33,134 bases of DNA from an uncultured Ruminococcus sp. (GTDB taxonomy: Bacteria; Bacillota; Clostridia; Oscillospirales; Acutalibacteraceae): positions 1 to 33,134 of the forward strand of contig CACYTI010000023.1 of NCBI GenBank assembly GCA_902777275.1. Reading direction: 5' to 3'. The stretch's first letter is position 1, and every line of letters starts with the position of its first letter. Under the pieces are notes generated by a model. It was not told the DNA's origin and did not search any database. It worked only from the letters and a program-made list of their open reading frames with translations. This document shows positions 11,793 to 32,612 of this stretch, one piece after another. The position numbers and the translations under genes were made by a program.

Positions 11793-13097
11793 TTAAACGC
11801 TAAGGAAAATACCTTCAAGTGTATAGCTTGCATCGGCTGTTGACTCAAAATATTCATCATCGCCGTTCTGGATAAACCACCAAACCTCGGTCTTTCCGTT
11901 AGCAGGAACAGTCAGGTTTGTAACGATCGGAGCATTGGTGATTGTTGTGCTGTTGGCGTCAAAGCCGTGAACAACAACATTTGCTGTTTTGGTCGCGGTT
12001 TCACCCTTTGAAGATGTGATTGTATAGGTCAGCGTTGCCGAGCCCTCAGCCACCGCTGTAATAGTTCCTTTGCTTGATCCGCTGTCGGAAACGGTGAAAA
12101 TATTTGTGTTGCCGGAGCTGTAGGATATCGAACTGCCGCAATAATCCGTGCCCGAGGTAAGAGCAACACTTATTGTTTGTCCGACAGAAATAGAAACCGA
12201 GTTAAAGTACTTCACAAAGCAAGCACCGTTGACATTCTCTTTACCCGCCCATGCGTTGTTGTAGTCGGTATATGTGCCGTTAGTATAAAAGAGCAAGCTT
12301 TGCAGCTGCGACAAGCCGTCACCGTTGAGATTTGTAAAGGTCTGCGTGCGCTGATAATTCGCAGGATTATTAGCAGTTGCGAAATAGAGCTGATTATGAC
12401 CGACAGGTATATCGGCATAATAATAGCCTGAGGTGCCTATTCTTGTCATCTGTACGTTTGATTGAACATTGCTGTCAACGTTGTTGCCCGACTTAACATA
12501 AAACGTTGTTCCGCCCCATGTTGTGCGATGGGCGTCATAGTTGTTGCCCGACGGTACTCTGCCTATCGGCTCAAAGTACACTCTCTTAACTGTGTTGGAA
12601 ACGGCGTTTTTTGTGGCAGGAGGGATAACCTGATTATAGGTCGAATAATTTTTGAACGCTTTGATCGGATAATTTACACCTACGCAAATGTTTGTGGTCG
12701 CGGAAATCGTAGGATGAAAATTTTTAATGAAAAGCGCAACCTTTTGCTCTGTTGAGCCGGAGTTCGTAATTTCCGTCTTATAATAATTTCTGTGTCCCGG
12801 CTGCAGTCCGCTGACACTTGTAGCAGGCGGAGCAGGCGTTTCGGAAAAAGATATCGCGTCGTCGGTGGAAAGGAATGTTTCCATCGTCAAATCTTTTCCG
12901 TCATACGCTTTCATGGAAAGTGTATTGCCGTTTGCGTCCTTATCGCCGTAAGGAATATTGAGCGATAAAGAACCGCCTGTTTTACTCTTTGGACGCTCAA
13001 ACCATGCAAAAGTCGGAGCGCTGACGCATAAGACTAATAATACAACTGCCAAAGCTAATACTACCACAGTCTTTAGCGCTGTCCTTGATTTTCTCAT
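11793..13097 (-). CDS. SipW-substrate surface protein with Ig-like domain
   Basis: A 434-residue exported protein. The signal (1-31) has a basic start, a hydrophobic core and the SipW-type end APTFA-WF. A TasA/CalY-like beta region follows, with ITNSGSTEQKVALFIKNF. Residues about 168-285 form a Tyr/Asn/Trp-rich module resembling starch-binding CBM25/26 domains. An Ig-like BIG_2 region (about 300-375) contains ISYSSGNTNIFTVSDSG and GTITAVAEGSATLTYT. The end returns to the cluster signature as TEVWWFIQNGDDEYFES. No LPxTG or other sorting motif is present. The start is decided by AGGAGG eight bases before the ATG at 13095-13097. It is probably an accessory, ligand-binding member of the surface set. 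Confidence 0.75.
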   Translation of the reverse strand: MRKSRTALKTVVVLALAVVLLVLCVSAPTFAWFERPKSKTGGSLSLNIPYGDKDANGNTLSMKAYDGKDLTMETFLSTDDAISFSETPAPPATSVSGLQPGHRNYYKTEITNSGSTEQKVALFIKNFHPTISATTNICVGVNYPIKAFKNYSTYNQVIPPATKNAVSNTVKRVYFEPIGRVPSGNNYDAHRTTWGGTTFYVKSGNNVDSNVQSNVQMTRIGTSGYYYADIPVGHNQLYFATANNPANYQRTQTFTNLNGDGLSQLQSLLFYTNGTYTDYNNAWAGKENVNGACFVKYFNSVSISVGQTISVALTSGTDYCGSSISYSSGNTNIFTVSDSGSSKGTITAVAEGSATLTYTITSSKGETATKTANVVVHGFDANSTTITNAPIVTNLTVPANGKTEVWWFIQNGDDEYFESTADASYTLEGIFLSV

Positions 13098-13120
13098 GGC
13101 TCTCACCTCCTGTTATAACA

Positions 13121-13864
13121 TTATTCGGTAAAGTTGAAACTTCCGCCGATTTGATTACGATTATCTGTTTTATCAGCTTTAATCCAAATACAATTGTTGT
13201 TTCCGTAAATACTATTGATATCAATATCAATTGTTTGGTCATTTCCGCCGTTAGCATTGAATAAAATATGAGTATAATCTAAACTAACCGTTACCTTATA
13301 TACTTTATGACCGCTATTTGTTTTGTTTGTATCAGTCATCTTTATATAATCTGTAGCACCGCCACTGGTATTCCAAGCATGCGCATACAAGTCTCCGCTC
13401 CAATTCTGAGTATTCTCAACATAATACGTCCTTACACTTATTTCGTACTTTGCGTAATATGTAACATTGTTAGTATTCTCGGTTGTTCCCAAAGTGTAGT
13501 TAGGGTTATCAGGAGCGATGACTTCATAAGTTTTGTTTGTTGACAGAACGGTTGTCGAGTCTTGCGAACTGTACCAGCCTATAAACTTCATCGTATCAGA
13601 ATCAGCGGCAGTGAGCGTTACCTTTTTATCATACTTCTGGTTAGCTATCAGGTTTCCGTTTGAGTCTACGTCCTGATATGTCTGACCATCAAGATTTACA
13701 CTTGAATCATTTGCGGGATACCACGTTGCCGTTCCGCTTACGCATGTGGAATCAGTTATAGCGCAGGATATATCTCCTGCTTCGTTATTATAAGACCCAT
13801 AATACGTTACTGTTACCTGTGCATGACTATGCTTCCAATAACCGAAAAGCTTGTTGGTTCCGTA
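13121..13864 (-). pseudogene. In-frame downstream part of the surface protein after TAA
   Basis: This is the direct in-frame continuation of the 13865-15274 gene past its TAA: 247 sense codons to the TAA just before the next gene. The first 91 codons contain no ATG, GTG or TTG, and the first ATG (13589-13591) has no ribosome site, so separate translation is unlikely. It encodes LFGYWKHSHAQVTVTYYG, then an InlB-B-like repeat (MKFIGWYSSQDST ... VTYYAKYE), then a module strongly recalling CBM26 starch-binding domains (YYVENTQNWSGDLYAHAWN, YTHILFNANGGNDQTIDI). It is either lost to a nonsense mutation or reached by stop-codon read-through. The reading frame is otherwise perfectly kept. Confidence 0.75.
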
Positions 13865-15274
13865 TTAATCATCATTGCTGATAGTTTGATTACGCGCTAC
13901 CCCAACGATCCCCCGGCAGGTCACGATATAACCGTACTCGCCGTTTTTCGAGGGAACCCTGAGGTCAAATGTTTGCAGCCACCTGTTGTCCCAGTTGTTG
14001 GCGCTTGTACTGCCGTTCATATAACAAAAGATAACATTTGTAGCGCTGCCCGTGTAAGAGCATTTATAATATCCGTTCCATGTTCCGGATGTGACAGCCG
14101 TCATATCATACCATGTGTGTGTGTTTGTTCCGGTACTGTCTATTCCGAATACATACGCCGCAAAGCGAACGTTTGAATTGTTCGTTGAATGCTGATAGAG
14201 CGGCTTCATGTAAAGCTCATGCTGATTTGAAAACTTTGCGTATAGAGTTTTGCCGGTTGTTGTTACCGTGTAAGAGTAGGGATCGACATCAGAGTTTGCA
14301 ATTACCGAACCTGTGGCGGAATCCGCCCAGCCGAGGAACTGATAACCGTTTGTTGTACTCGGAGCCGCGTGTAAATTCAATGCATGGTTAAGTGATGTAT
14401 AATAAGTGACTGACGCGGCATAGGAGCTGTTTTCAATAGCAACACTGCCTCCGGCTCCGCCCACTGAATTATTTGTCACCGCTTTGACCGTGAATGGGAT
14501 AACCGTTACAAGCTTGAAATTGGCTACTGTCAACGCCTTGTTATGATAAACGCTGCTGCTTGCTCCTGTCGGATCCTGAATCCACATATTAAAGCTGAGA
14601 TATCCGTTAGCAGTTGTTTCCACAACTCGCTTTTTTCCGGTCACATATTCGGAAAACGGATGAACAGTTACAGAAGCCACGGTCGTTCCGTTCTCACCGC
14701 TTATTACGTTCTCGGTGAACTCCTCGTCAAAAAGACTGAAAACGGTGAAATTGCCGTTTGTGTCGCCGACCGAAAAACGGACAAGCTTTTTATTTGCGCC
14801 CGAAAGGGCTGTTCCGTCAAACTTGATTGTCGGAACCTGCGCGAATGACAGACTTACATTTGATAGTGTCTTTACGGTAAAGCTAACGTAGTTAACATTT
14901 TTGTCGTTGACCGAAGCGACTCTGTACAATTGTGTAGAGCCGTTCATGCCGCCCTTAAAATACATTGTATTACCGTCGGATGAAGACGCGGGAGCAAGGT
15001 GATAACCGCCAGACGGACGGAAATAATTTGTCAAATCAATATCGGTGGCGTTGCTGTTTGAAAGATTGACCTGCTGATAATTCGCCGATTCGACAATTCC
15101 CTTTGCTCCGTCTTTGGTGTAAATCTTAATAGATGAAATGGACTCGATCCATGCAGAGGTCGAAACCAGCATAATCGCCAGCACCTCAACAAGTGCCACA
15201 ACAGAAAGAATAACAGCTATTTTTCTTCTTTTGCCGGACTTGACATAATGACGACCGCGTTTAAATCTTTTCAC
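13865..15274 (-). CDS. SipW-substrate surface protein, stopped early by TAA
   Basis: A 469-residue exported protein, start GTG with AGGAGG seven bases ahead. The signal (1-41) is very basic and ends STSA-WI. Residues about 45-285 are TasA/CalY-like and hold the shared motif in the form FNMWIQDPTGAS. An InlB-B-like repeat follows at about 290-350 (GYQFLGWADSATGS ... KTLYAKF), then a Trp/Tyr-rich module at 350-455 (YVFGIDSTGTNTHTWYDMTA, NVIFCYMNGST) similar to starch-binding domains. It ends SNDD-stop, but the frame continues for 247 more codons. The original protein was probably about 717 residues with two InlB-B/CBM-like pairs. A surface adhesin or substrate-binding role is inferred only. Confidence 0.75.
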   Translation of the reverse strand: MKRFKRGRHYVKSGKRRKIAVILSVVALVEVLAIMLVSTSAWIESISSIKIYTKDGAKGIVESANYQQVNLSNSNATDIDLTNYFRPSGGYHLAPASSSDGNTMYFKGGMNGSTQLYRVASVNDKNVNYVSFTVKTLSNVSLSFAQVPTIKFDGTALSGANKKLVRFSVGDTNGNFTVFSLFDEEFTENVISGENGTTVASVTVHPFSEYVTGKKRVVETTANGYLSFNMWIQDPTGASSSVYHNKALTVANFKLVTVIPFTVKAVTNNSVGGAGGSVAIENSSYAASVTYYTSLNHALNLHAAPSTTNGYQFLGWADSATGSVIANSDVDPYSYTVTTTGKTLYAKFSNQHELYMKPLYQHSTNNSNVRFAAYVFGIDSTGTNTHTWYDMTAVTSGTWNGYYKCSYTGSATNVIFCYMNGSTSANNWDNRWLQTFDLRVPSKNGEYGYIVTCRGIVGVARNQTISNDD

Positions 15275-15304: not shown

Positions 15305-16843
15305 TTAGTTTCTGCTCACCGGACCGTTAGCCGTTCCCCAATAACCGATACACGGAGAAAGCCACTTCTCATAGCGCTGTGAATCGTTATGTGCAACCGT
15401 GCTGTAGCCGTTGCCTCGCAGCGCATAATAATGAACATACTTACTGTTTGTCGATCCAATTAACCTTGTTTCGGCAAGATTGCCGAGGATTTCCCAGTTT
15501 GAGTTTCCTTTAAGGTTTGGATGCAAATTATTTCTTACCCCGACATATGTATGCCACGAGTTAAAAATCGTCCCGTCGAACACATCGTCCCCGTGAGTAC
15601 TTAGTCGGTAGAATGAGATTTGTGTTGAAACATATTTTGGAATAGCGGTTTTATATTGCTTACAACCGTTGGAATCTGTACCTGCGTCGGTCATAACAGA
15701 GGTTTTCCAAGATTCAGCTACATTATCATAATAAGATAATACTATATTAACGTTGCCCGAAAGCCAGTTTCCGCCATTCCATGTATGTGCGGTTCTAACC
15801 TGTGAAGCGTTGACCGAGTTGTGCTCGTCACCGATTGTCCAATCGTGGAGATAAATCTCCTCCATCTCATTAACATTCGTTTCGATTTCAAGCTCGAATG
15901 TCAGCTCCTTGCCAACATACTCCTTAGCTCTGGGATGCGTTCCCTCAAGCCACGCAACTACAGTTAGAGAAATCGTTTTGCCCGGTTCTATGGTGAACAG
16001 CGGGTTGTCTGTGCCGTAATAATAGGAAGAGAATGAATCAAGTCTGGTTGTCTCGGTTTCAGCCTTTCCCTCGGTGTCGATTTTATAGACCGCGTTGGTA
16101 TTGTTAACATATGAGCTCAATTTAGCCGACGGGTCAAACACCTTGGGCGTGTGTCCGCTGTCGTCGATGATCGCGATGCGGACGGGACAGGTATAATCAG
16201 CAGGGAAAACCTGTCCAACAGGTGTGTTTCCGTTGTAGGTCAAGTTTATATGATCCTGATAAACCGAATTGCCTATCGTAACCTTATAGCCCTTGAGCCA
16301 GACCTTTGTTAAAGCGCCGCTTGACGAAATTGTAGTATCGGCATACGCGTAACGTACCATTTTATCTCCCGCGTTGCCCTCACGGAATGATAACGCTTTT
16401 GTCTGCGCATCCATATTTGTATTCGTGTTGGTGCTGCCGTAGTCAAAATTGATAATTCTTCCGTTATCGGATGAATTGGGAAAATCCCAGCGATACTCTA
16501 CCGTTGCATTTACCGCGTCGGAAGCGTTATTCTTGAAAGACGAAGGGAAATAAATATTTCTGCCGTCTACGCTCGACGCCTCTTCCATACGGAAATTTGA
16601 AATGGCAATTTCCGTTTGATAGGATTGAAGCTGGTCGTCCTGCATACCGCTTGACGATTTCATTTCCAAAACAGGAGATGTAATTGAAATGCCGTCCTTT
16701 GCGGTAAGCCACGCTGTTGTTCCGCCGATTGCCAGCGTCATAACGATAAAAAGGGAAACATATGATTTAGCGGTTTTCTTACGGCGTTTACGGTTTAATG
16801 AAGCCTTTTCTGCAATAGCTTTGCCGAGTGTTTTTAAATCCAT
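15305..16843 (-). CDS. SipW-substrate surface protein with C-terminal binding-like module
   Basis: A 512-residue exported protein. The long basic N-terminus (1-28) leads to a hydrophobic core and the SipW-type end GGTTA-WL at about 44. The TasA/CalY-like region (about 50-325) contains a pattern of alternating beta strands and the shared motif VVAWLEGTHPRAKEYVG before ELTFELEIET. Residues about 330-512 form a Trp/Tyr-rich module (EIYLHDWTIGDEHNSVNASQ, FYRLSTHGDDVF) with the look of a carbohydrate-binding domain. GGAGG eight bases before the ATG at 16841-16843 decides the start. It lies within 50 bases of both neighbours, so it is in one operon. No sorting motif is seen. Confidence 0.75.
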   Translation of the reverse strand: MDLKTLGKAIAEKASLNRKRRKKTAKSYVSLFIVMTLAIGGTTAWLTAKDGISITSPVLEMKSSSGMQDDQLQSYQTEIAISNFRMEEASSVDGRNIYFPSSFKNNASDAVNATVEYRWDFPNSSDNGRIINFDYGSTNTNTNMDAQTKALSFREGNAGDKMVRYAYADTTISSSGALTKVWLKGYKVTIGNSVYQDHINLTYNGNTPVGQVFPADYTCPVRIAIIDDSGHTPKVFDPSAKLSSYVNNTNAVYKIDTEGKAETETTRLDSFSSYYYGTDNPLFTIEPGKTISLTVVAWLEGTHPRAKEYVGKELTFELEIETNVNEMEEIYLHDWTIGDEHNSVNASQVRTAHTWNGGNWLSGNVNIVLSYYDNVAESWKTSVMTDAGTDSNGCKQYKTAIPKYVSTQISFYRLSTHGDDVFDGTIFNSWHTYVGVRNNLHPNLKGNSNWEILGNLAETRLIGSTNSKYVHYYALRGNGYSTVAHNDSQRYEKWLSPCIGYWGTANGPVSRN

Positions 16844-16874
16844 ATGTTTCACCTCCAAACTGTTAGATTGTTAT

Positions 16875-17987
16875 TTAACTTGCGCTGTCAAGGGAGAAAT
16901 CAAGAATCGTCTTGAATTTACCGGTGATCTGCGCCGAACGGGACTCGGGATCCTCTCCCTCGACCCATAAGTTCACTTGAACAAAATCAGCATAATAAGA
17001 TTTGCTGTTGTATGTTGCCTGTGTATTGAGAGTAGTCAAATTTACATCTGTGTGCAGCTTAAAATCTCTGTTTGTGTTTGCCGTAACGCCCGCTTCGGGA
17101 GTTGAATTATAATTGATCTTAGAACGCGTTTTATCGGCGTTGTAGTAACCGTGATTGTATGTGCCGTCGGTGTGAATATTTACGTTGCTTCCGTTTTGAA
17201 CGTAGAACAAACCATATGTATTAGCCGTATTCAATAAATCATTCGGTGTGCTTTGATTATATGTGGTGTTGAAAAGCTCAACTCCGTCAAAAAACAGATG
17301 CGGTGCAGGCACCCAAAGAAGCTTTCTGGTGCTCAAAGCGGAATCGTAAATCGCCATTCTTGCGGCACCGATAACCGCATCGGATGAAAAGCCGGAAACT
17401 TTGTTGCCGAAATCATATGTTGAGGAAGGACCCGAAGGCGGACCATAGTAGGTGTTTTCCCCTAATATGATTTTTTGTCCCGACTTTTGAGCTCTGAAAT
17501 ACAGGTTGATACTCATGTAATCCTGATTTCTGACGGTCTCCAAATTAGCTGTTGACCACTTTGTGTTAAATTCGGCCTGAGTTTCCGAGTCAAATTTTGT
17601 GGTCTGAACAGTTGCAACAGAACTGATCTGATAAATAGGGGGAGTGATAAAAGTCTTTCCGTCGCCGGTGATATCAGCTAAGCTGAGCGCCGCAAGGAAC
17701 GGATAATCTTCATCTGTAATCGTGAAGGACTCATTTTTCCAATTTGTATCATCGTTTAAATAGCTTGTTAACTGAGCTCCCGTCAGGGTAGGGTCAACAA
17801 CGCAAACCTCCAAGCCCTCGGGAACCGAGCACACGACTTGCACGCCCGACGCCTCCGCATGTGCCCCGGTCGGCGTAAACCACGAGCGAACACCGACAAC
17901 GGTCGCAACGGCGAGCACAGCTAAAATTATTAAATTTTTAGCAATCATTCTGCGGGTCTTGCGACCCAGCTCTTCGCTCTTTTTCAT
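16875..17987 (-). CDS. SipW-substrate TasA/CalY-like surface protein
   Basis: A 370-residue exported protein directly after the coiled-coil gene (28 bases). The signal has KKSEELGRKTRRMIAKN, then a hydrophobic core and VRSWFTP near 34-40, a variant of the A-W-F end. The mature start ASGVQVV matches the one in the 23163-23993 protein (SASGVQV). A single beta-rich domain fills the protein and ends with the shared motif VNLWVEGEDPES and ILDFSLD. There is no added binding module, so it is a plain subunit-type member. GAGGTTTGCA precedes the ATG. Polymerising or capping roles are possible but not shown by the sequence. Confidence 0.75.
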   Translation of the reverse strand: MKKSEELGRKTRRMIAKNLIILAVLAVATVVGVRSWFTPTGAHAEASGVQVVCSVPEGLEVCVVDPTLTGAQLTSYLNDDTNWKNESFTITDEDYPFLAALSLADITGDGKTFITPPIYQISSVATVQTTKFDSETQAEFNTKWSTANLETVRNQDYMSINLYFRAQKSGQKIILGENTYYGPPSGPSSTYDFGNKVSGFSSDAVIGAARMAIYDSALSTRKLLWVPAPHLFFDGVELFNTTYNQSTPNDLLNTANTYGLFYVQNGSNVNIHTDGTYNHGYYNADKTRSKINYNSTPEAGVTANTNRDFKLHTDVNLTTLNTQATYNSKSYYADFVQVNLWVEGEDPESRSAQITGKFKTILDFSLDSAS

Positions 17988-18015: not shown

Positions 18016-20517
18016 TTACTTCTCGAAGAAGTAAACCGCTATCATGCCGCTTGTTTTTAACTTTTTGTTGTAGTTGACTGTAACATCGTTAAAGCCCTTT
18101 TCATTGACCTTTGCAACATATGACTCCGCTGAGATATCCTCGCTGCCCGTAAATGTGATTATTACAGGGCATTTCTCGATCTGGCTGAGCTCCCAGTGAA
18201 GCTCGGGGAACGCGCAGGTCAGGTCGGCGCTCTTTTTATAGAATTTTAAGACTTTAATTCCCGCCTGAGTGGTTTTGGAAACAAGTATTCCTCTCTCTGT
18301 TCTGCACGCGGAGAAGCCGACGATTAAGTTGGCGGCGTTGCTGATTTTTTCTGCCGCTTTCTTATCTTTTTGTTCAATAAGCTTCTGCGTGAGGTCACCG
18401 AGCAGGAATGAGCTTCCGAAAACGAAATCACGGTTGATCTGGTCAGACGTGCCTCTGATGGCTCGAATCGCTTCGTTCGCGCTGATGTGAGCCTGCTCCG
18501 CTCTTTCCTCGGCCTTCATAACACGGGCTGTCGCAATGCTCTGGATTTCCTGGGCTTTAAATTGATATTTCTTCTCGGCGTTTCTCTTTGCGTCGGCAAC
18601 GCGCTTGTCAACAGATTTCTGGACGTTTTTGACCTCGGTCACGTGCTTAGCGCTTGCCGCAGCTGCGGCATTGATGTTTGCCTGCTTGATATCGCCGATC
18701 TGGTTCTCATATTCTTTCTTCTGCTGCGACAAATCATCAAGACGCTTTTGCTCTGCCTGATTCGCTTTTTCCGCGAAATCATCCTGCATGGATTTGATTT
18801 CGGCAGCGTGCTCGTTGAGCATCGCGACCCTCTGATTCTCAAAGTTGAGATTCATTTGCTCCTCGTGCTCTTTTCTCTCGGTGCGTTCCTTCTGGAGCGT
18901 ATCTACGAGATTTTCATTGCGCGAGGTAAGATCCTTGATCGTTTTGTCGTCTTCATCCATCTTCGCTTCGCATACGCTGATATGCTTTTGCAGAGCTGCG
19001 ATAGTTGCAATGTGAGCAGTGATTTGACGCTCCAAATCCTGAATGGTAGCTATCTGACCGGCAATAATTGCCTCCTGCTCCTCGATCTTAGCTTTTTGCT
19101 CGGCGTTCTCTTCTTCAAGAACCCGAATACGCTCATTTAAGGTTTCAATTTGCTTGTTGAGCTCTTCGATAGTGTTGTTTAGTTCAACGATGTGAGCCTC
19201 AAGCTCCTCGATCTTAGCCTTGAGCTGGGCATTCTCTTCTTCAAGCTCTTTGATTCTCTTCTCGGCTTCAAGCAGCTTGAGCTTGACGAACTGCAGCTCG
19301 TCTTTGAGCTCTCTGATTTCCTGCTCTAAAGCCGCTACTGTTGCTTTGAGGGCTTGGATTTGCTTTTCCTTTTGTTCAAGCTGAGCTTTAAGGTTTCTGA
19401 CCTCGGTTGTAAGCTCCTGGATTTTCTTGTCACGCTCGCGGATCTCCTTGAGTCTGATGGCCATTTCTTCACGGCGAACAGCGTCGACCTGAGCACGCAG
19501 AACCATTTCACGCGTTTTTTCGGGCTGCGCGTTTTCCGCAGCAAGACGTGCATTTTCTTCCTCGTACTTTTCCTGAAGCATACGGCGCAGACCGGGGTTG
19601 GTCGCGATATTCATCATAAAATGCTCGAAGCCCATGGTGAAATATACGTCCTGCTGCGCCTCTTTGTCCATTGCACCCTCGTATTTCTCGGAAACGATCT
19701 CAAAGCCGCGCTTCTGATATTTATCGAGGAACTGCCACAGCTCAACTGCCTTTTTAAAGTTGGGGTCGCCCTTCAGCATATTTGTCATAACGATCGGCGG
19801 GCGAACCTCGGTTTCCTTTTTGATTGCCTGCATGAGCGGTGTGGCGAGGAAACTGTTGAGCTTTTCTCTGATTTTTCTTATACGGTCGAAATCGGAGAGC
19901 TGCTCATTATCTATTACGGAGTCAAGGTGTTCGTTAAACACCTCATGCGCCTCACGGGTGTACTTAAAATTGAAGTCAACCGTTTCCTCATGCATATTGA
20001 TTTGACGTTCCATGTTGAAATCGTTGTAGATATCGTCGGGAACATCCTTCATTTTGGTATACTTATCCGCAACAAATTGCAGTGTGCGGCGTATAAGCGT
20101 CATAAGAAAGCGGTTCTCATAAATCGCAAAGCTCTCTTCTTTTTCTGTAACAAGGAGCTTATTAGGTATGATCCTGCCGTTATCCTCAACCTTCGCAATA
20201 AAATTGGTGTGCTGGGAAAGATGCTTTACGGATTCAGGACCTGTTTTGCGCGCCAGCTCCACCTTAACGATATTTTCAATTTGTTTGATGAAGCGGCGCT
20301 GCTGTTCGATAGCGCGCTCAATATAAGGCAGAGTGTCCTCGATAGCCTCGACCCACTCCATGTCGATAACCTTTTCGTTGGTTTTACCGATAAGAGTGTC
20401 TTTTCCGACGTCGCCGTCTTTGAGGTTCTCGGTTATGTAATTGTAAGTAAAATCATCCTCCAGAAGCTCCTGCATATACTTGTAGCCTCTGTAATACTTG
20501 GTATAATCTACAGCCAT
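18016..20517 (-). CDS. DUF2357/McrC-N-like protein with long coiled coil
   Basis: An 833-residue protein with no signal peptide or membrane helix. The N-terminal 310 residues resemble the DUF2357 domain of McrC-type partners of AAA+ motors: WVEAIEDTLPYIERAI (55-70) and the Y-E-N-R-F block FAIYENRFLMTLIRR (130-144). Residues about 320-700 form an almost continuous coiled coil of IEELE and LEEENAQLKAK-like heptads. The last 130 residues are globular (FVFGSSFLLGDLTQKL ... GMIAVYFFEK) and unrecognised. The PD-(D/E)xK nuclease expected in McrC or DUF2357 nucleases was not found. It follows the AAA+ gene by 81 bases and is most likely its partner, perhaps a long cytoplasmic arm or scaffold reached by the membrane-bound motor. 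AAGGAG supports the start. Confidence 0.7.
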   Translation of the reverse strand: MAVDYTKYYRGYKYMQELLEDDFTYNYITENLKDGDVGKDTLIGKTNEKVIDMEWVEAIEDTLPYIERAIEQQRRFIKQIENIVKVELARKTGPESVKHLSQHTNFIAKVEDNGRIIPNKLLVTEKEESFAIYENRFLMTLIRRTLQFVADKYTKMKDVPDDIYNDFNMERQINMHEETVDFNFKYTREAHEVFNEHLDSVIDNEQLSDFDRIRKIREKLNSFLATPLMQAIKKETEVRPPIVMTNMLKGDPNFKKAVELWQFLDKYQKRGFEIVSEKYEGAMDKEAQQDVYFTMGFEHFMMNIATNPGLRRMLQEKYEEENARLAAENAQPEKTREMVLRAQVDAVRREEMAIRLKEIRERDKKIQELTTEVRNLKAQLEQKEKQIQALKATVAALEQEIRELKDELQFVKLKLLEAEKRIKELEEENAQLKAKIEELEAHIVELNNTIEELNKQIETLNERIRVLEEENAEQKAKIEEQEAIIAGQIATIQDLERQITAHIATIAALQKHISVCEAKMDEDDKTIKDLTSRNENLVDTLQKERTERKEHEEQMNLNFENQRVAMLNEHAAEIKSMQDDFAEKANQAEQKRLDDLSQQKKEYENQIGDIKQANINAAAAASAKHVTEVKNVQKSVDKRVADAKRNAEKKYQFKAQEIQSIATARVMKAEERAEQAHISANEAIRAIRGTSDQINRDFVFGSSFLLGDLTQKLIEQKDKKAAEKISNAANLIVGFSACRTERGILVSKTTQAGIKVLKFYKKSADLTCAFPELHWELSQIEKCPVIITFTGSEDISAESYVAKVNEKGFNDVTVNYNKKLKTSGMIAVYFFEK

Positions 20518-20568
20518 AACAATCTCCTTACTAATTACTGAACGCTTGATCGAAATGAATCAGCACTG

Positions 20569-20593
20569 AAAGGGCGAAGAGTGTTCGCCCTTT
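20569..20593 (-). terminator. Hairpin between the AAA+ and coiled-coil genes
   Basis: AAAGGGCGAA and TTCGCCCTTT form a perfect 10-bp stem with a 5-base loop, immediately after the AAA+ stop. On the minus strand no T tract follows, so it looks more like an attenuator or mRNA-end stabiliser than a full terminator. Confidence 0.5.
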
Positions 20594-20598
20594 TTCAA

Positions 20599-22140
20599 TT
20601 ATACAAGCTTCTTGAGCATCATCAGATATGACTTGCATTCATTCATGTTTTCAGAGCCGAAGAGTTCATCCATATACGCTACGAGTCCGTCGATTTCATC
20701 ACGGATGTAAGCGAGGTTGAGAGACTCAAACTTTCTGAATACCTTACGGGCGAGAACGCAGTCAAGAGCCTGAATTTCGGTGCCGCCGCAGCCAACGTAG
20801 GACGGTACGAAGTCGCGCATTTGTTTCATAATACGGTTACCGAAAGCTATGCGGAAATGCTCGATAACATAATCGTCAAGCAGACCGATTTTTCTGATGT
20901 TTTCTTCCGAGAGCGGATACTTCGCCTTTGCTTCGTTGAGCAGCGCCTCGAAATGGTGATAGTTGATGACAACCGGCTCGGTATCGGGGGCGTCGAAGGG
21001 AACGCCTTTGGTGTCGATGTTAATGGGCATCGCACGGTCGTAAACCTTATCGGTGATAGCGAATGTGGAGTCGTCGTTGTTCGCGGTGCCGACGTACCAC
21101 ATATTCGGAGGAACGGTGAGCTGACCGTTGACGATATGCTTGGGATCGCTCTCCCATGAGTTGGGAACGATATCTACGATCCACTCCTCGCGGCGCGGCA
21201 TTTCAAGAATGGAGAGCATTTCAGCGAAGTAATACTCAACACGAGCGATATTCATTTCGTCGAGGATCACGATATAAACATTCTCGTTGTAGGATGCCTC
21301 GTACATAGCGCGGAGAAGCTCGGTTTCGTTGAACTTCTTGGTGAATTCGTTGAAGTAGCCGAACAGCTCGGTTCTGTCACGCCATGACGGCTGAACGGAA
21401 GCGATGATCGACGGGTTGGAAACATACTTACCAAAAGCATAAGCCAGCGATGTTTTACCTGTACCGGAAATACCCTGTAAGATGATAAGGCGGTTTGAAC
21501 CAAATGAAGCGACAAACGAACGAATGAGGTTGATGTCGTAGTACAGACCGAGCTTGGAGCAAGCAAAGAGTCTGAAACGTTCACAGAATTCAGGCAGCGT
21601 GATCTCGTTGTCGTATACGGGCGGCTGATAGTCTGCCCACAGCTCGTCGATCTCGGCAAGCTTGTAGAATCTCTTTCCGCCCTCTTCTTCCTCGTCGCCC
21701 TTGTTGAGAGCTTCGATTTCTTCTCCGGTGAGCTCGGCGATCTCGTTCGGGTTGAGACCGATCTGAGAAACCTTCATAGAGAGGATCTTATCCTTTTCAA
21801 GGTTAAGACGCATAACTTCTTTGTTGAGCGACTGCACTTCTTTTACAAGCGAATCGGTGTCTTTTCTTCTTTGACGCGACTTGATAAACTTTTTTATAGC
21901 GACGATAATAAGCCATACAATCAAGCCCATCACGGCGGCGAGAAGTACAATGGCGATAATCGCAATTACCCACGCCAGACCGCCAAGCTTGTCTTCACCT
22001 GCAAAATCATTTATAATCTTTACATATTTCGGGAAATTGAACATTCCCACAATTCCTTTGAAAAAGCCTGTTATAATTGACCACAGAGAGCCAAAGAACT
22101 GGCCGAGAAAATGATACAGAAAATCAAATACGGTATCCAC
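20599..22140 (-). CDS. Membrane-anchored McrB-like AAA+ ATPase
   Basis: A 513-residue protein. The N-terminus has an amphipathic stretch (1-40), a strong membrane helix (54-83) and a short coiled coil (about 97-122). An AAA+ domain of the McrB/MoxR group follows: Walker A GISGTGKTS (223-231), Walker B VILDEMNIARVEYYF (291-305), sensor-like GTANNDDST (351-359) and a DRA arginine site (368-370). McrB normally has MNxxDR at the sensor; here it reads ANNDDST, so GTP specificity is doubtful and ATP use is more likely. A DNA-recognition domain such as McrB-N is absent and replaced by the membrane anchor. The start is GTG with AAGGAG nine bases ahead. It probably works with the adjacent coiled-coil protein at the membrane. 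Confidence 0.85.
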   Translation of the reverse strand: MDTVFDFLYHFLGQFFGSLWSIITGFFKGIVGMFNFPKYVKIINDFAGEDKLGGLAWVIAIIAIVLLAAVMGLIVWLIIVAIKKFIKSRQRRKDTDSLVKEVQSLNKEVMRLNLEKDKILSMKVSQIGLNPNEIAELTGEEIEALNKGDEEEEGGKRFYKLAEIDELWADYQPPVYDNEITLPEFCERFRLFACSKLGLYYDINLIRSFVASFGSNRLIILQGISGTGKTSLAYAFGKYVSNPSIIASVQPSWRDRTELFGYFNEFTKKFNETELLRAMYEASYNENVYIVILDEMNIARVEYYFAEMLSILEMPRREEWIVDIVPNSWESDPKHIVNGQLTVPPNMWYVGTANNDDSTFAITDKVYDRAMPINIDTKGVPFDAPDTEPVVINYHHFEALLNEAKAKYPLSEENIRKIGLLDDYVIEHFRIAFGNRIMKQMRDFVPSYVGCGGTEIQALDCVLARKVFRKFESLNLAYIRDEIDGLVAYMDELFGSENMNECKSYLMMLKKLV

Positions 22141-23162: not shown

Positions 23163-23993
23163 TTAGGGCTTATCTTCGTAGATGCTGAACTGGAGTTCGG
23201 GCATTACGTTACCTGCATAGGTATCATAGCAGTCAGCATCCTGGCCTTCGAACCATACGATAAGCATATAGTACTTAGCAGCGCCTGCTGCGAGGGTGTC
23301 GCCAACCTTAACCTTGATTGTGGTTCCGGCAGCTGTGGTAACTGTATCGGTTGTGGCGATGTTGCCGTTTGTGTTTGCAGTAGCAGTCAAAATACCAAGA
23401 GCTGTGTCGTTGTTGGAAGCGCCGTATACGCTGGACTTAAATGTAGCAGCGTCCTTAACGGTTGCAGATGCACGACCTGCATCTGTTGTGCAGCCGGACT
23501 CAACAAGAGCAACACGGAGGTACTTTTTAGCAGCAGCAGCGTCGTTGAACTTCTCGGTGATGTTTCCGCTCAGCTCGATGTAAACAGGATTCTCGATGTC
23601 GGCAGAACCGGCATTCTTAACATTGAGCATGTTGTAGAACATATAGCTCTCAGCAGCCTGAGCTGTGTTGTTGGCGATTTTGTTAACGGTGCCGTTCTTA
23701 GCTGTTGCGGCGTTGGAGCCTGCGGCTGTTGCGTAGAACCAGTCAACACCGTTAGCGGATGAAACAGGATTTAATGTTTTGTTGAAACCATAGTCAAGGT
23801 CGTTTACCCATTCGGAAGTTCTGCTGGAAACGAGAAGGCTGGAAACCTTGTCGGTCTTAACCTGAACACCGCTTGCGGACGTAGAGGTATCAGTTGTGAA
23901 CCATGCGAAAGTCGCGGTTCCGAGTGCGAGCATTGCTACGAGGAGCATTGCTACGGAAGAGATCAATAATCTTCTTCTTGATTTTGCTTTCAT
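23163..23993 (-). CDS. TasA/CalY-like protein, likely major surface subunit
   Basis: A 276-residue exported protein with the most typical SipW signal of the cluster: MKAKSRRRLL, a hydrophobic core and GTATFA-WFTTD, cleavage after about A30. The mature protein is rich in Ala, Thr, Asn and Ser (runs such as AATAKNGTVN and LAAGAAKYY), has one beta-rich domain and ends with the shared motif LIVWFEGQDADCYD and LQFSIYEDKP. Small size, simple composition and an excellent AGGAGG site suggest high expression and a structural role, as for TasA or camelysin. It has a 128-base leader upstream. That it forms fibres is an inference from the family. Confidence 0.8.
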   Translation of the reverse strand: MKAKSRRRLLISSVAMLLVAMLALGTATFAWFTTDTSTSASGVQVKTDKVSSLLVSSRTSEWVNDLDYGFNKTLNPVSSANGVDWFYATAAGSNAATAKNGTVNKIANNTAQAAESYMFYNMLNVKNAGSADIENPVYIELSGNITEKFNDAAAAKKYLRVALVESGCTTDAGRASATVKDAATFKSSVYGASNNDTALGILTATANTNGNIATTDTVTTAAGTTIKVKVGDTLAAGAAKYYMLIVWFEGQDADCYDTYAGNVMPELQFSIYEDKP

Positions 23994-24113: not shown

Positions 24114-24131
24114 CGCTGAATTTATTCAGCG
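24114..24131 (-). terminator. Small hairpin at the end of the anchor-protein gene
   Basis: CGCTGAA (24114-24120), TTTA, TTCAGCG (24125-24131), overlapping the stop codon of the upstream gene. It has no T tract. It may separate expression of the anchor-type gene from the presumed major subunit. Confidence 0.35.
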
Positions 24132-24970
24132 TAATTATACGTGTCTTCTTCGATCTTGCCGTCGTAGTAGTCGCCGAAGGGTTTCTCGCCTTCGTCGTCG
24201 AGGACCTCGAAGAGCATCTTCATTCTTACCCAGCCGTCGCGGATCTCGTCTACACACTCGGCGTCGCTGCCCTCTATCCAAATGACTATCGTGTACTTGT
24301 CAACGTCATTCGGTTTGAAGCCGGTCGATTTGGCGGTCATAACAACTTTGTCGTCCACAAACATCGTTGTGTCCTGCTCCGCCTTGCTGCGGTCGGTGTA
24401 TTGCGGCTTGGCGTAGATGTTCGCTTCTCCGTTCTTATAAACCATGACGCGGCAGGCTTCGTCGGCTGACTTTGCAACGCCCGTTATGTCGAGCACCGCC
24501 TTGTAGTCAAGCTTCTCGTCGCCCTCGTTGCGGCAGTAGAAGGTGTATGCAACGTAGTTTTTGCCGTTGTGCTCACCGTCCTTTGAGGTGTCGAGGTCTG
24601 TGGGCAGCCACGTATAGGTTATGTTGGTTACGTTTTGCACCTGCTTAGCCGAAAGAGCAACTTGCTTGGTTTCAAACTTGGGGTCGGTGCTGAGAACGAT
24701 TCCCTTATTCTGGAGCGGCTTATCAACCTCAATTACCAAATCGCCCCATTTTGTAATCAGCATCGAAACCAAAAACAGAACTACCAAAATAGCAAGCAAT
24801 GCGCCGAGCGCGATTCTGAGGAAGAGCCGACGTTTTTTCAGCCCGACAATGCTCTTGGAGTCCATATTGACGTGATATTTACGTATCGCGGGATTTTGGA
24901 CATCCTTATCATTTTGCTTACTTAACTCCTGAGGAGTGGTCGGTTCTTGTATTTTGTTTTTACGAGGCAA
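24122..24970 (-). CDS. Membrane-anchored TasA-like protein
   Basis: A 282-residue protein with a 49-residue cytoplasmic N-terminus, one membrane helix (about 50-73) and an extracellular domain. Unlike the other six related proteins it has no A-W-F/L/I cleavage end after the helix (it reads SMLITKWGDLVIEVD), so it is probably not processed and stays anchored. The outer domain carries the shared motif IVIWIEGSDAECVDE and ends in an acidic tail. It may be the base or anchor of the surface structure. The start is TTG at 24968-24970, with GAGGAGG eight bases ahead; a TTG two codons earlier is too close to that site. Confidence 0.7.
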   Translation of the reverse strand: MPRKNKIQEPTTPQELSKQNDKDVQNPAIRKYHVNMDSKSIVGLKKRRLFLRIALGALLAILVVLFLVSMLITKWGDLVIEVDKPLQNKGIVLSTDPKFETKQVALSAKQVQNVTNITYTWLPTDLDTSKDGEHNGKNYVAYTFYCRNEGDEKLDYKAVLDITGVAKSADEACRVMVYKNGEANIYAKPQYTDRSKAEQDTTMFVDDKVVMTAKSTGFKPNDVDKYTIVIWIEGSDAECVDEIRDGWVRMKMLFEVLDDEGEKPFGDYYDGKIEEDTYNYAE

Positions 24971-25023
24971 CTTCAATCCCTCCTCGGTTTAACAGGTTAT
25001 AATTATAAATCATATGGTGATTT

Positions 25024-25072: not shown

Positions 25073-25885
25073 TTATGAAATAGGTACGTTGTTCTCATCG
25101 GTTCCGACAAAGCTGAGCGCGACCTTGAGGTCGGCATCCTGAACATCGTCGTCGCACTGGGGATCCTCGCCGTCAACCCACAGACGGACTGTAACCTTTT
25201 TGGGGGTAAGCTCATCAAGATGGAACAGACGCGAGCTGTCCGAATAACTCATGGGGGTCGAGATGTCGAAGGTGCTGAGTCCGTTTACGGTTCCCGCCTT
25301 GTTCGGCTCGTAAACCGCTGTGCCGTTGCTGTCGGTGGTAAAGCCGACTCTTGTGCACTGAACGACCTCGCTTCTCGGGGAAGGTGAATCTGAGGTCACC
25401 TGAGTTCCCTTGTCGCCCGCAATGTCCGAGGATTCGGTTGTGAGGTGAACCCACATTTCTTCGGTAGCAATAAAGTAACACTCAAACTCAAGATATGATT
25501 TTTTGTTCGGTTCCTTTACCGCGCCGCCGCGGTTGGTAAGCCTTACGCCGTCAGTGGTGGTTACGGGATCTAAAATGATATCCGCAAGCTTTGTGTTGTA
25601 TTTGCTGCCTAAATAACCGTCAATCATCTCGTTTGTAATTACTTTTACGTATTGGTCGAGATCCTTGCCGTGATCTTCCATGGAAACCTTTAGCTGCGCC
25701 GCGACACTGATGTGAACGTCAAGCGTATCTACACCCGCGAAGGTATTGACCGAAAACCACGCGACTGTGGAGGTTGTCATGGAAAGAAGTGTGATAATCG
25801 CGATAAACACGATCAGGCGTTTACGCCTTTTTTGGGTCATTTTATCATTTGTCATGCGCGCTGCCGCCTTAGAAAACAGTCCCAT
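25073..25885 (-). CDS. SipW-substrate TasA/CalY-like protein (first gene of cluster)
   Basis: A 270-residue exported protein. The signal has a long basic N-terminus (KMTQKRRKR), hydrophobic core 24-38 and the SipW-type end TSTVA-WFSVN near 42. The beta-rich mature domain includes KKSYLEFECYFIATEEMWVH and ends with the shared motif VRLWVDGEDPQCDDD and KVALSFVGTD. It is the first gene after the cluster promoter. AAAGGAG eight bases ahead selects the ATG at 25883-25885 over GTG and ATG codons just upstream. A minor subunit or initiator of the surface structure is a reasonable but unproven role. Confidence 0.78.
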   Translation of the reverse strand: MGLFSKAAARMTNDKMTQKRRKRLIVFIAIITLLSMTTSTVAWFSVNTFAGVDTLDVHISVAAQLKVSMEDHGKDLDQYVKVITNEMIDGYLGSKYNTKLADIILDPVTTTDGVRLTNRGGAVKEPNKKSYLEFECYFIATEEMWVHLTTESSDIAGDKGTQVTSDSPSPRSEVVQCTRVGFTTDSNGTAVYEPNKAGTVNGLSTFDISTPMSYSDSSRLFHLDELTPKKVTVRLWVDGEDPQCDDDVQDADLKVALSFVGTDENNVPIS

Positions 25886-25933
25886 TGACATCACTCCTTT
25901 TGCTTTTGTAGCATATTTCTCTACTTATATGTG

Positions 25934-26516: not shown

Positions 26517-29390
26517 TCAGGCGTCGCGTCCGCAGCATTTTTTATACTTTTTGCCGCTGCCGCAGGGACAGGGGTCGTTTCTGCCGACCTTTTTACCCTT
26601 GCGAACGGTTTTGTTCGCGGTGTCGGTTCCGTCGCCGGAGGTCTGAACGGGCTTGGCTACCTGCTCACGCTTAAGCATCGCCTGAACAGCCACGGGCTGA
26701 GACTTTTTCTCTTCCTTTTCCTCCATAGCCTTCTGCGCCGCCGCTGCCTGCTTTTCGGCTTCCTTGCGCGCCGCCTCAATAGCCTCCTGACGCTTCTGTA
26801 TCTCATAAACGCGCTTGGGCATGATGAGCATGAGCTTGACGGTATCCTCGCGGATATTCTCGATCATCTCATCAAACATATCAAAGCCTTCAAGACGGTA
26901 CTCGACAACGGGGTCATGCTGACCGTAGGAGCGAAGACGGATTCCCGCCTTGAGCTGATCCATAGCGTCGATGTGATCCATCCAATGGGTATCGACGCTC
27001 CTGAGCAGGTAAACGCGCTCCATTTCGCGGATGGTTTCGGCGGGCACGATCTCTTCGTTTTCCTTGAAGATCGCGAGGGCGTCGTCCTTTATCATTTGAC
27101 CGATCTCATCGGCTTCCATTTCCTCAAGATCATCGAGATCGAGCTTGTATTTTTCCTCGTCGGTGATTATCCAGCCCTTGTAGTACTCGACAAGGCTCGG
27201 ATAGTTCCAGTTCTCCTTGGGGCCCTCGGGCAGATAGTGGGTGATCGAGGTATCTATAGTGTCGTTGAGCATTTTGAGAATGGTTTCGTGCAGATCTTCG
27301 CCGTCGAGAACCTGATCGCGCTGACCGTAAATGATCTCACGTTGACGGTTGAGAACGTCGTCGTACTGGAGAACGTCCTTACGTATTCCGAAGTTGCGCA
27401 GCTCAACTTTTTCCTGCGAGTTCTCTATAATATTTGTGAGCATTTTGTTCTCGATCGGGGTGTCCTCGTCAACGTTCATACGCTCCATCATCGATCTCAT
27501 ACGGTCGCCGCCGAACAGGCGCATAAGGTCGTCCTCTGTCGAGAGGAAGAAACGGCTCACGCCGGGGTCGCCCTGACGTCCGGAACGTCCGCGGAGCTGA
27601 TTGTCTATTCGGCGGGACTCGTGACGCTCGGTACCGATGATCATAAGACCGCCCGCCTCGCGAACCTGATCCGCTTCGCCTTTGATTTCGTCCTTATATT
27701 TATCGTTGAGCTCCCTAAATACCTTGCGCGCTTCGAGGATCTCCTCGTTGTCGGTTTCGGCATAACCTGTGGCTTCCTCGATCAGTTCCTCGGGATAGCC
27801 CTGCTTGCGCATTGACGACTTCGCCATATACTCGGCGTTACCGCCCAAAATTATATCGGTTCCACGTCCCGCCATGTTGGTGGCAATCGTTACCGCGCCG
27901 AACTTGCCCGCCTGCGCGATGATTTCGGCTTCTTTGTCGTGCTGCTTGGCATTGAGGACATTGTGCTTAATACCGCGGCGCTTGAGCATTTTTGAAAGGT
28001 GCTCGGATTTCTCGATTGAAATGGTACCGACAAGCACGGGCTGACCCTTTTCGTGAACCTCGGCGATCTGGTCGATAACCGCGTTGAACTTGCCGTTTTC
28101 TGTTTTGAATACCGAGTCGGGCAGATCCTTACGGATAACGGGCTTGTTGGTGGGGATCTCAACAACGTCAAGCTTGTAGATCTCCTGGAATTCCTCGGAC
28201 TCGGTCTGACCTGTTCCGGTCATACCCGAAAGCTTTTTGTAAAGGCGGAAGTAGTTCTGGAAGGTGATGGTCGCGAGAGTTTTGCTCTCGGACTGCACCT
28301 TAACGCCCTCTTTCGCCTCGATAGCCTGGTGAAGACCCTCGTTGAAGCGTCTGCCATACATAAGACGTCCGGTGAACTCGTCGACGATTATTACCTCGCC
28401 GTCCTTTACAACGTAATCGACGTCAAGCTTCATTACGCCGTTCGCCTTGATTGCCTGGTTGACGTGGTGCTGCAGGGTGAGGTTTTCGGGATCGGTAAGG
28501 TTTTCGATGCCGAAGAACTCCTCAGCCTTTTTAACACCTGACTGAGTGAGCGTGGCTGTCTTTTGCTTTTCATCAACAACGTAATCTATTTTGTTCTCCT
28601 CGTAGTAGGCGTCCATATCCTGCTTTGAGTCGATTTCGGTGAAGCGCTCAAGCTTGAGGGTTTTTGCAAGCTTGTCGGCGCGCTCGTAAAGGTCGGTGGA
28701 TTTGTCGCCCTGACCCGAAATGATAAGAGGAGTACGCGCCTCGTCTATCAGGATGGAGTCAACCTCATCGACGATCGCAAAGGCGTGACCGCGCTGAACC
28801 TTGTTTTCCTTATATACTACCATGTTGTCGCGCAGATAGTCAAAGCCGAGCTCGTTATTTGTGCCGTAAGTTATATCGGCGGCGTAGGCTTCCTTTCTGC
28901 TCTCGTTGTTCAGGTCGTGAACGATAAGACCGACCTTTAGTCCCAAATATTTATATAGCTTGCCCATCCACTCGGAGTCGCGGCGGGCAAGATAATCGTT
29001 TACGGTAACGATGTGAACGCCGTCGCCCGTGAGAGCGTTCAGGTATGCCGGAAGGGTAGCCACAAGAGTTTTACCTTCACCGGTTTTCATTTCGGCGATT
29101 CTGCCCTGGTGGAGAACTATGCCGCCGATCACCTGTACGGGGAAGTGCTTCATTCCGAGTACGCGCCAGCTCGCCTCGCGGCAGGCGGCAAAGGCGTCGG
29201 GAAGAATGTTGTCAACGGTTTCGCCGTTCGCCAGACGCTCTTTGAAAATCGCCGTTTGATTTTTAAGTTCGCTTTCGGACATTGCGGCATATTTTTCTTC
29301 AAGCGCCAAAACCTTGTCAGCTATGGGCTGAACACGCTTGACTTCGCGCTTGCTGTAGTTGCCAAACATCGCTTTTAAAAAGTTTGCCAT
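26517..29390 (-). CDS. secA: Protein translocase ATPase SecA
   Basis: A 957-residue SecA, the ATPase that drives preproteins through SecYEG at the membrane. The DEAD-type motor has Walker A MKTGEGKT (101-108), [15 protein letters not shown] and the second-half motifs NMAGRGTDI and [10 protein letters not shown]. The C-terminus has a complete zinc-binding SEC-C tail ([17 protein letters not shown]). [16 protein letters not shown] is the usual SecA start and follows AGAAAGGAAA; the longer in-frame start is not needed. It would export the precursors made by the neighbouring surface cluster, but this is general function and not evidence of a special link. It follows the penicillin-binding protein gene by 102 bases. 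Confidence 0.98.
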
Positions 29391-29492
29391 TGAATCTATT
29401 TCCTTTCTGTGTGAATGTCGGTTGTTTATATATTCAGTCAGCACGAAGCTGAACTTGTCACTTAAATCGTCAACTGTCCATTGTCCTGTGAT

Positions 29493-30902: not shown

Positions 30903-32612
30903 TTATCTCTTGATCGAATATGTTCTTTCGTCCGCCGCCTTGATAAACGCCAAAAGTCCCCAGCAGGAGATCACGCTGGAACCGCCGGCGCTTATGAACG
31001 GGAAGGTCACGCCTGTGAGCGGCAGGATATCCGTCGCGCCGAAAACGTTGAGCGAAAGCTGAACCACAAGCAGTCCCGCCGCGCAGCAAGCCGAAATCGA
31101 GTAGAAGGTGCTGCGTGCTCTCGTTGTTATCGCGCGCGCATAAAGCATTAGCAGCGCCACGGAAAGCGCGAGAACGATCGCAACGATAACGCCCATCTCC
31201 TCTGCGACAAGCGCGAACACAAGGTCGCTTTCGGAAGCGAAATACTGCTTGAAATAGCCGTTTCCTATGCCCACGCCGAACAGACCGCCCGACGCGATAT
31301 ATGTGAGAACGCGCACCTGCTGGTAGCCCGCGCTTACGTCGGCATAATCCCAAACATGGCGGTATGCCTTAAATCGGTTGAGCACGTAATTGAAGCGGTC
31401 GCCGATAAACGAGATCTTTTCGGCGAGGAAGCGCATTGAGAAGAACGCCGCGATAACCGCTCCTATCGGGATCAGTACGGTTTTGATATCTCCCGAACGC
31501 ATGAACACAACGAGAAGGAAGGTCACAAAGAAGATCAAAGCCGTGCCGAAGTCGCTCATAAGGGCGAGCAAGGCAACGCATACAGCCGAATAAATGGTAA
31601 ACTCAATAAGGTTCCGCTTTGTCTGCAATTTGTCAAGCGGGCTTGCGCCTACAAAAATAAAAATCGTCTTTACAAATTCCGACGGCTGGAACGAGATCGA
31701 GCCTATGTAAACCCAGTTTGCCGCGCCGTTTGTCGCTTTGCCCAAAACAATGGTAGAGGCGAGCATGGCGCAGGAAATTATCATCATAGGGATACGGATC
31801 TTCTGCACCCTGTCGGGGTCCTCTATAAACTTTACTATAACGCAGTAAAGCGCGATCCCGATCCCCATTGCGATAAGCTGAACATACGCCGAGCGCTCCA
31901 CCTGCCTGATGAGCATCATTACGCCGATTCCCGTCAAAAACAGTCCCAAAGCCTCAAGCTCAAAGTTCACGCGCCTTAATGCGAAGTATGAAACAGAGAA
32001 AAAGCCCCATTCCACAACCGCCATAACGCCAAAAAGGATAAGCGGAGAATAAACGTTGGTGCCGTCGTTCCAGAACATAGCCTCGACAGCCATGAACAGG
32101 TGGAACAGGGTTATCATAAACATCAGCTTCCACGCCTGGATAGCGGGCTTGTCGCTGACCTTTGAGAAGAACCTGCTTGAACGGAGAGGCGAGTTGAAGT
32201 CGTCGCCGCGCTTTAGCCGGTACTCGGTGCTGCCTATAGTGATAATATCGTCGATAAGCACCTGCGCTCTGCCGTGGATCGGCACGCCGTTGACATAGGT
32301 TCCCGTTACGGAGCCAACGTCGGACACAAACCAGCCGGCGCTTCTTCTCAAAAGAACGCAGTGGTTGCGCGATACCGATAAATCGTTTATAACAATGTCA
32401 CTTGATTTGCTTCTGCCTATGGAGTTTTCCCAGAACACCACGGGGATCATGCCGCCCGAACGGGGGTTATACAGCGAAACAAGCGGCTTCTCGGGTCGTC
32501 TGCGGCGGCGCATAGCCGCGTAGCACTGATATACAATAATAATGGCGAAAAGGGGCATGACCATGCGAAGTCCCACAACGCCGGCGTCGTAGATCACGGA
32601 AATATCAAACAA
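30903..32612 (-). CDS. FHA domain fused to FtsW/RodA/SpoVE glycosyltransferase
   Basis: A 569-residue SEDS-family peptidoglycan polymerase with an N-terminal extension. Residues about 12-33 form a membrane helix. Residues about 45-135 form a forkhead-associated (FHA) domain with GRS (66-68), SRNH (81-84) and the NG loop (108-109), the phosphothreonine-reading residues. The rest has about ten membrane helices with FQPSEFVKTIFIF and the C-terminal VTFPFISAGGSS signature. The FHA domain suggests control by a Ser/Thr kinase. The start is TTG at 32610-32612, nine bases after AAGGAGG. It is the first gene of the unit with the penicillin-binding protein. Confidence 0.93.
   Translation of the reverse strand: MFDISVIYDAGVVGLRMVMPLFAIIIVYQCYAAMRRRRRPEKPLVSLYNPRSGGMIPVVFWENSIGRSKSSDIVINDLSVSRNHCVLLRRSAGWFVSDVGSVTGTYVNGVPIHGRAQVLIDDIITIGSTEYRLKRGDDFNSPLRSSRFFSKVSDKPAIQAWKLMFMITLFHLFMAVEAMFWNDGTNVYSPLILFGVMAVVEWGFFSVSYFALRRVNFELEALGLFLTGIGVMMLIRQVERSAYVQLIAMGIGIALYCVIVKFIEDPDRVQKIRIPMMIISCAMLASTIVLGKATNGAANWVYIGSISFQPSEFVKTIFIFVGASPLDKLQTKRNLIEFTIYSAVCVALLALMSDFGTALIFFVTFLLVVFMRSGDIKTVLIPIGAVIAAFFSMRFLAEKISFIGDRFNYVLNRFKAYRHVWDYADVSAGYQQVRVLTYIASGGLFGVGIGNGYFKQYFASESDLVFALVAEEMGVIVAIVLALSVALLMLYARAITTRARSTFYSISACCAAGLLVVQLSLNVFGATDILPLTGVTFPFISAGGSSVISCWGLLAFIKAADERTYSIKR

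Follow-up and report, generated by a model that had tools for sequence, protein, structure and literature searches.

A CoCoPALM-type McrBC-like pair linked to SipW-type signal peptidases and exported proteins in an uncultured Ruminococcus

Described relatives and the class of the pair

Among the closest described relatives of the locus analyzed here, an McrB-like AAA+ gene and its partner gene in an uncultured Ruminococcus sp. (assembly GCA_902777275.1; the window is positions 1 to 33,134 of contig CACYTI010000023.1), are the CoCoPALM systems, which Bell et al. 2024 (eLife, PMC11090510) name and treat in a single paragraph, the rest being deferred to a later publication. As outlined there, CoCoPALM systems combine an NxD-type McrB with a membrane segment and a coiled-coil segment, a coiled-coil McrC homolog, and signal peptidases that the authors thought to be pilus assembly factors, and the N-terminal domain of their McrB homolog is homologous to FtsB, for which the window protein gives weak matches to FtsL; NxD is the NxxD motif as shortened in one McrB branch, where it is usually followed by E or D. 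The window pair has corresponding features, namely, an NxD AAA+ protein with a membrane helix and a charged helical segment standing for the coiled coil, a DUF2357 partner with a coiled coil, and associated signal-peptidase genes, and on these sequence traits we assign it to the CoCoPALM type. Our preferred reading, to which we give a probability of about 60%, is that the pair is a non-nucleolytic AAA+ machine for the export or assembly of SipW-dependent surface proteins.

A preliminary interpretation of the same DNA made without database searches (the sequence-only reading) also saw a repurposed non-nucleolytic machine under the membrane, as we do, but it treated the pair as an unnamed system, whereas the CoCoPALM traits fit. 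It did not include the SipW-type signal peptidases and the exported proteins, the context that we deem decisive. The SipW identity of the peptidases, the exported family, the optional C-terminal domain, the short partners, and the association with EAL genes are new beyond the CoCoPALM paragraph. The terms SipW, TasA, c-di-GMP (cyclic di-GMP), "EAL domain", and biofilm do not occur in the main text of PMC11090510, the literature searched contained no CoCoPALM partners or function described beyond that paragraph (paper and preprint), and a search of titles for McrBC linked to SipW gave nothing evidently related.

The CoCoNuT systems resemble the window pair in having an NxD McrB, a DUF2357 McrC homolog, and long coiled coils. 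The sequence-only reading held that CoCoNuTs keep a nuclease, but according to the parts of PMC11090510 that treat the coiled-coil clade the PD-(D/E)xK domain of its McrC homologs is often absent or inactivated, and nucleases of the HEPN or other types lie next to these homologs. The difference is that CoCoNuTs carry or adjoin nucleases, whereas a family scan of the window cluster proteins found none (RNase Y, at 4682-6238, lies on the opposite strand outside the cluster), and the 118 neighbors scanned in related loci yielded one nuclease-like Pfam family, DUF559, in one protein. These 118 proteins were picked from 221 (31 loci; L050 was dropped, its AAA+ gene not having been picked up) plus a further set, and the NCBIfam tally of the neighbors displays 25 of 66 families.

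The McrBC systems of E. coli and T. gammatolerans (PDB 6hz4, 6ut5, 6ut6, 6ut7) share with the pair the AAA+ core and the McrC N-terminal domain, but have NxxD and a DNA-recognition domain where the window protein has NxD and a membrane helix; of the traits of type IV restriction McrBC, the window pair thus retains the McrC N-terminal domain, while NxxD is absent and no nuclease was found in the sequence. On the side of the peptidases, the tapA-sipW-tasA operon of B. subtilis (PMC9674648, PMC10151520) and the sipW-bsaABCRSD operon of C. perfringens, in which SipW is required for the secretion and polymerization of the BsaA filament (PMC7395162), likewise place a SipW-type peptidase beside exported beta-rich proteins. 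As described, these operons contain no McrBC-like pair.

Linkage to SipW-type peptidases and exported proteins

Synteny and co-occurrence show the pair to be a constant component of a module that also comprises SipW-type signal peptidases and a family of exported proteins. In the window, two SipW-type genes and seven genes for exported or membrane-anchored proteins, S1 to S7, surround the pair on one strand (Table 1). The gene order S1-S2-S3-SipW-AAA+-partner was observed in 12 of 17 loci of the same genus, one other locus being cut by a contig end and four having the SipW or S2 gene moved. A scan of genome contigs gave 569 confirmed loci, the best 80 of which were used for flank counts; the titles of these 80 all denote metagenome-assembled or uncultured genomes. 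Among these 80, a SipW gene was found within 5 kb in all 61 loci with at least 3.5 kb upstream (58 upstream, three between the AAA+ and partner genes), and the partner within 2 kb in all 77 with at least 1.5 kb downstream. Of 59 related genomes, 28 had both the AAA+ and the S2 gene and 27 had neither, four (G005, G011, G024, and G025) had S2 by itself, and none had the AAA+ gene by itself (Fisher test, 8.9e-13, uncorrected for kinship, with a 27-residue S2 match in G021 scored as absent). Fragments of the partner are still present in G005 and G011.

Both signal peptidases are of the SipW type judging by their TIGR02228 scores over the cut-off and their Ser and His motifs. The genome has five TIGR02228 matches, and the two over the cut-off are both in the cluster, flanking the pair one on each side. 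NF046067, the Bacillus SipW equivalog, scores peptidase A at 109.1 bits, under its cut-off of 190, and peptidase B is also below.

Six of the seven S proteins have, by eye, an [AS]W[FLI] motif directly after the N-terminal hydrophobic stretch, and S1, S2, and S3 are mutually related (profile-profile probability 97-99). An EGxDxxC block is conserved near the C-terminus of S1, S3, and their relatives (alignment A5). The S6 gene is interrupted by a stop codon, the frame staying open onward through the open reading frame (ORF) 13121-13591 (span 13121-15274, minus strand); its relatives can be far longer single ORFs, for instance, of 1265 residues in L031. The S proteins were also considered as candidate TasA proteins, but we do not claim this identity: the TasA/camelysin family PF12389 has no match at E <= 10 anywhere in the genome, S proteins included, TIGR04088 (SipW-cognate signal peptide) has none in the cluster and a single match outside it in the genome, below the cut-off, PDB sequences gave no match, and the predicted structure of S3 matched the TasA fold only weakly.

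At three loci, L125, L128, and L130, the linkage to SipW is kept, while S1, S2, and S3 are undetectable. These compact clusters have SipW-type genes on both sides and encode several small membrane-anchored proteins, including one FAWF-motif protein each. Immediately before the AAA+ gene, on its upstream side, they also encode a soluble protein of about 340-350 residues without a known family.

Table 1. Genes of the cluster in the window
Feature	Coordinates	Strand	Characteristics
McrB-like AAA+ NTPase, 513 residues	20599..22140	-	membrane helix, charged helical segment, AAA+ core with Walker A, Walker B, and NxD (NNDDST)
Partner, 833 residues	18016..20517	-	DUF2357/McrC N-terminal domain 1-~310; coiled coil ~336-690; optional C-domain ~690-833
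SipW-type signal peptidase A, 260 residues	22335..23117	-	TIGR02228 65.1 bits (cut-off 51.85); SDSM and THR motifs
SipW-type signal peptidase B, 290 residues	10902..11774	-	TIGR02228 76.4 bits, over cut-off; Pfam S26 over cut-off; SGSM and THR motifs
S1, exported protein	25073..25894	-	STVAWF N-terminus; EGEDPQC block near C-terminus; no Pfam match at E <= 0.001
S2, membrane-anchored relative of S1 and S3	24122..24976	-	without AWF motif; co-occurs with AAA+ gene
S3, exported protein	23163..23993	-	ATFAWF; predicted mostly beta; inner ATG taken as start, listed ORF to 24092
S4, exported protein	16875..17987	-	RSWF
S5, exported protein	15305..16858	-	TTAWL
S6, exported protein	13865..15274	-	TSAWI; List_Bact/Flg_new-type repeat below cut-off
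S7, exported protein	11793..13106	-	TFAWF; weak Ig-like match

Domain structure of the two proteins

The AAA+ and partner genes are separated by 81 bases. The AAA+ core has PDB matches to McrB, and the N-terminal part contains a single strong membrane helix at residues ~61-79. Basic residues follow it in a run, from which a cytosolic location of the AAA+ domain is predicted, and there is a conserved charged helical segment after the helix at ~95-125 (alignment A2). The helix is present in 101 of 101 homologous loci versus one of 28 other NxD relatives, in agreement with the sequence-only reading, which saw an McrB-like protein with a membrane helix instead of a recognition domain. The same reading regarded the GTP signature as lost, but its ANNDDST sequence is the known shortened NxD form (as described in part of PMC11090510), which we found at all 101 loci (NNDDST in 100 and NIDDST in one); the 28 other NxD relatives compared all have NxDE. 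Since Walker A is intact in all 101 loci and the DEMN sequence is found in 100, the protein is likely an active NTPase. Some genomes appear twice among the 101 loci, having been retrieved by two routes; the tree contains 92 distinct AAA+ sequences, which cluster separately from the 28 other NxD relatives with support of 0.83. Full-length homologs were found in two of 398 genomes of the phylum, the source genome included, and the AAA+ core alone was matched in 52 more.

DUF2357 was detected by Pfam family scan in all 20 of the partners scanned, and the predicted structure of the N-terminal domain of the window partner matches the McrC fold. A PDB sequence-profile search with this domain did not hit McrC; its two hits, at E 0.084 and 1.2, were to unrelated sequences, so the identification of the domain is based on the Pfam and fold results. 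The DUF2357/McrC-like N-terminus proposed earlier is thus retained, a structural match having been obtained. The coiled coil was also correctly recognized as long; it spans about 355 residues, with a heptad signal in the window protein. Partners of only 362-371 residues occur at L125, L128, and L130, and the long stalk is therefore not essential.

The C-terminal domain, of about 140 residues (18019-18450 in the window), is present in eight of 20 aligned partners and in 14 of 78 partners in a wider set, and hence appears to be optional, although a few of the ORFs of the 64 homologs in which it was not found stop at contig ends. Among the ORFs searched, it was not found outside partner proteins. 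It has no Pfam match at E <= 10 and no good PDB sequence-profile match, and the residues invariant across eight of its sequences form no nuclease set and no PD-(D/E)xK motif. The partner accordingly has no detectable nuclease at the sequence level, and to that extent the earlier statement that its C-terminal region shows no PD-(D/E)xK domain where one would be expected is supported.

Possible functions and neighboring genes

Since the pair sits among genes for the export of surface proteins, it may contribute to building the cell surface and not to antiviral defense. We suggest that one helix would hold the McrB-like protein in the membrane and leave the AAA+ domain on the cytosolic side, where the AAA+ proteins would form an NTP-dependent (nucleoside triphosphate-dependent) ring. 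The DUF2357 domain of the partner could dock in this ring and stimulate it, as McrC does, and the coiled coil could project as a stalk or scaffold. The NTP-driven ring might then recruit, organize, or gate the steps by which the S proteins are exported, processed, and assembled into a putative surface filament or layer. If so, gut and rumen Clostridia have turned a restriction machine into an energized device that exports or assembles surface proteins.

In relatives, an EAL-domain gene on the same strand was observed near the pair in 26 loci (among L048, L049, L050, and L096-L129), upstream in 24 and downstream in two. Outside the Ruminococcus-like group, 23 of 32 loci with at least 2.9 kb upstream have this gene, and within that group, to which the window belongs, none of 22 loci with at least 5.6 kb upstream has it, the groups being defined by list order of identity and not by the tree. 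Of the 21 EAL proteins aligned out of 26, 19 keep at most five of the eight positions taken as catalytic with L050 as a guide, and two keep all eight. One EAL-only protein matches solved EAL structures ranging from active enzymes to FimX, and those from L103, L116, and L123 carry an HD-type stretch at the N-terminus, in which the motifs HDIGK and HHE..DG.GFP occur. The mostly degenerate EAL protein that joins the cluster in the sister group may be a c-di-GMP or signaling input, by analogy with FimX, which is described as working together with PilB, the type IV pilus motor (PMC8389850), and c-di-GMP control would then be possible in some lineages. A c-di-GMP link for the window itself was rejected, because the two GGDEF and two EAL matches of the genome are all off its contig.

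A bolder form of this proposal, which we offer tentatively and think less probable than not, is that McrBC has been exapted as a membrane AAA+ motor with a DUF2357-capped ring that assembles SipW-processed subunits of a clostridial surface filament, and that in one branch a catalytically dead EAL protein serves it as a c-di-GMP switch. Such a machine would assemble filaments in a way unrelated to type IV pili, to sortase pili, and to unassisted TasA assembly.

Three other functions were weighed. A scaffold or landmark role, in which the pair would place the export site by NTP binding rather than by a power stroke, as proposed for PcdA, seems unlikely to us. It draws on the long coiled coil, on an FtsL-like helix and coiled coil in the N-terminal part of the AAA+ protein (weak FtsL matches with E 0.01-0.16), and on the precedent of PcdA, an McrB-family AAA+ protein co-opted for a cell-envelope task as a cell-division factor of S. 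aureus; but in PcdA, as described in PMC10602043, Walker A is largely degraded, Walker B lacks the glutamate, and there is no McrC N-terminal partner, whereas the motor motifs and the DUF2357 partner are kept in the family of the window pair, and the three loci with short partners are also at odds with a scaffold. Rather less probable is that the pair controls the SipW peptidase or the expression of the cluster and has no part in assembly. The SipW linkage at L125, L128, and L130 and the EAL proteins of relatives, which suggest a control layer, fit such a regulator, but those loci still carry membrane-anchored proteins, S2 itself is tightly linked to the AAA+ gene, and neither the AAA+ protein nor the partner has a DNA-binding family over the cut-off, the coiled coil giving only TMF_DNA_bd and bZIP_2 below it.

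We consider it improbable that the pair is a defense system, that is, an McrBC relative tethered to the membrane that would detect phage at the envelope and respond via a non-nuclease effector or a surface change. The AAA+ core falls in the NxD McrB branch, and the PADLOC defense-candidate model PDC-M26A matches it at 6.6e-41, but all four other NxD proteins tested score better (8.8e-51 to 4.7e-56), so the model marks the NxD branch and not this clade, and it was rejected as specific evidence for defense. Moreover, the N-terminal fragment of the partner has no PADLOC match at E <= 0.001, one scan of viral contigs, which bears on a phage origin as well, gave no relative, and the neighbors are SipW, exported proteins, and EAL proteins in a module syntenic over many species. 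Because of the PADLOC match, defense finders may mislabel such pairs.

A SecA gene (26517-29444, minus strand) lies just upstream of the cluster. At 20 loci of relatives the cluster had no such gene next to it, and SecA was therefore rejected as a system component and taken as a chance neighbor. A promoter and terminator scan for operon structure was uninformative, with 19 terminator-like sites versus 17.8 expected. Farther along, the gene at 30903-32612 (minus strand) encodes an FtsW/RodA/SpoVE-family protein with an N-terminal FHA domain. Finally, a protein that looks secreted and carries a type I dockerin domain (6315-7100, plus strand) suggests cellulosome-type surface assembly in this organism.

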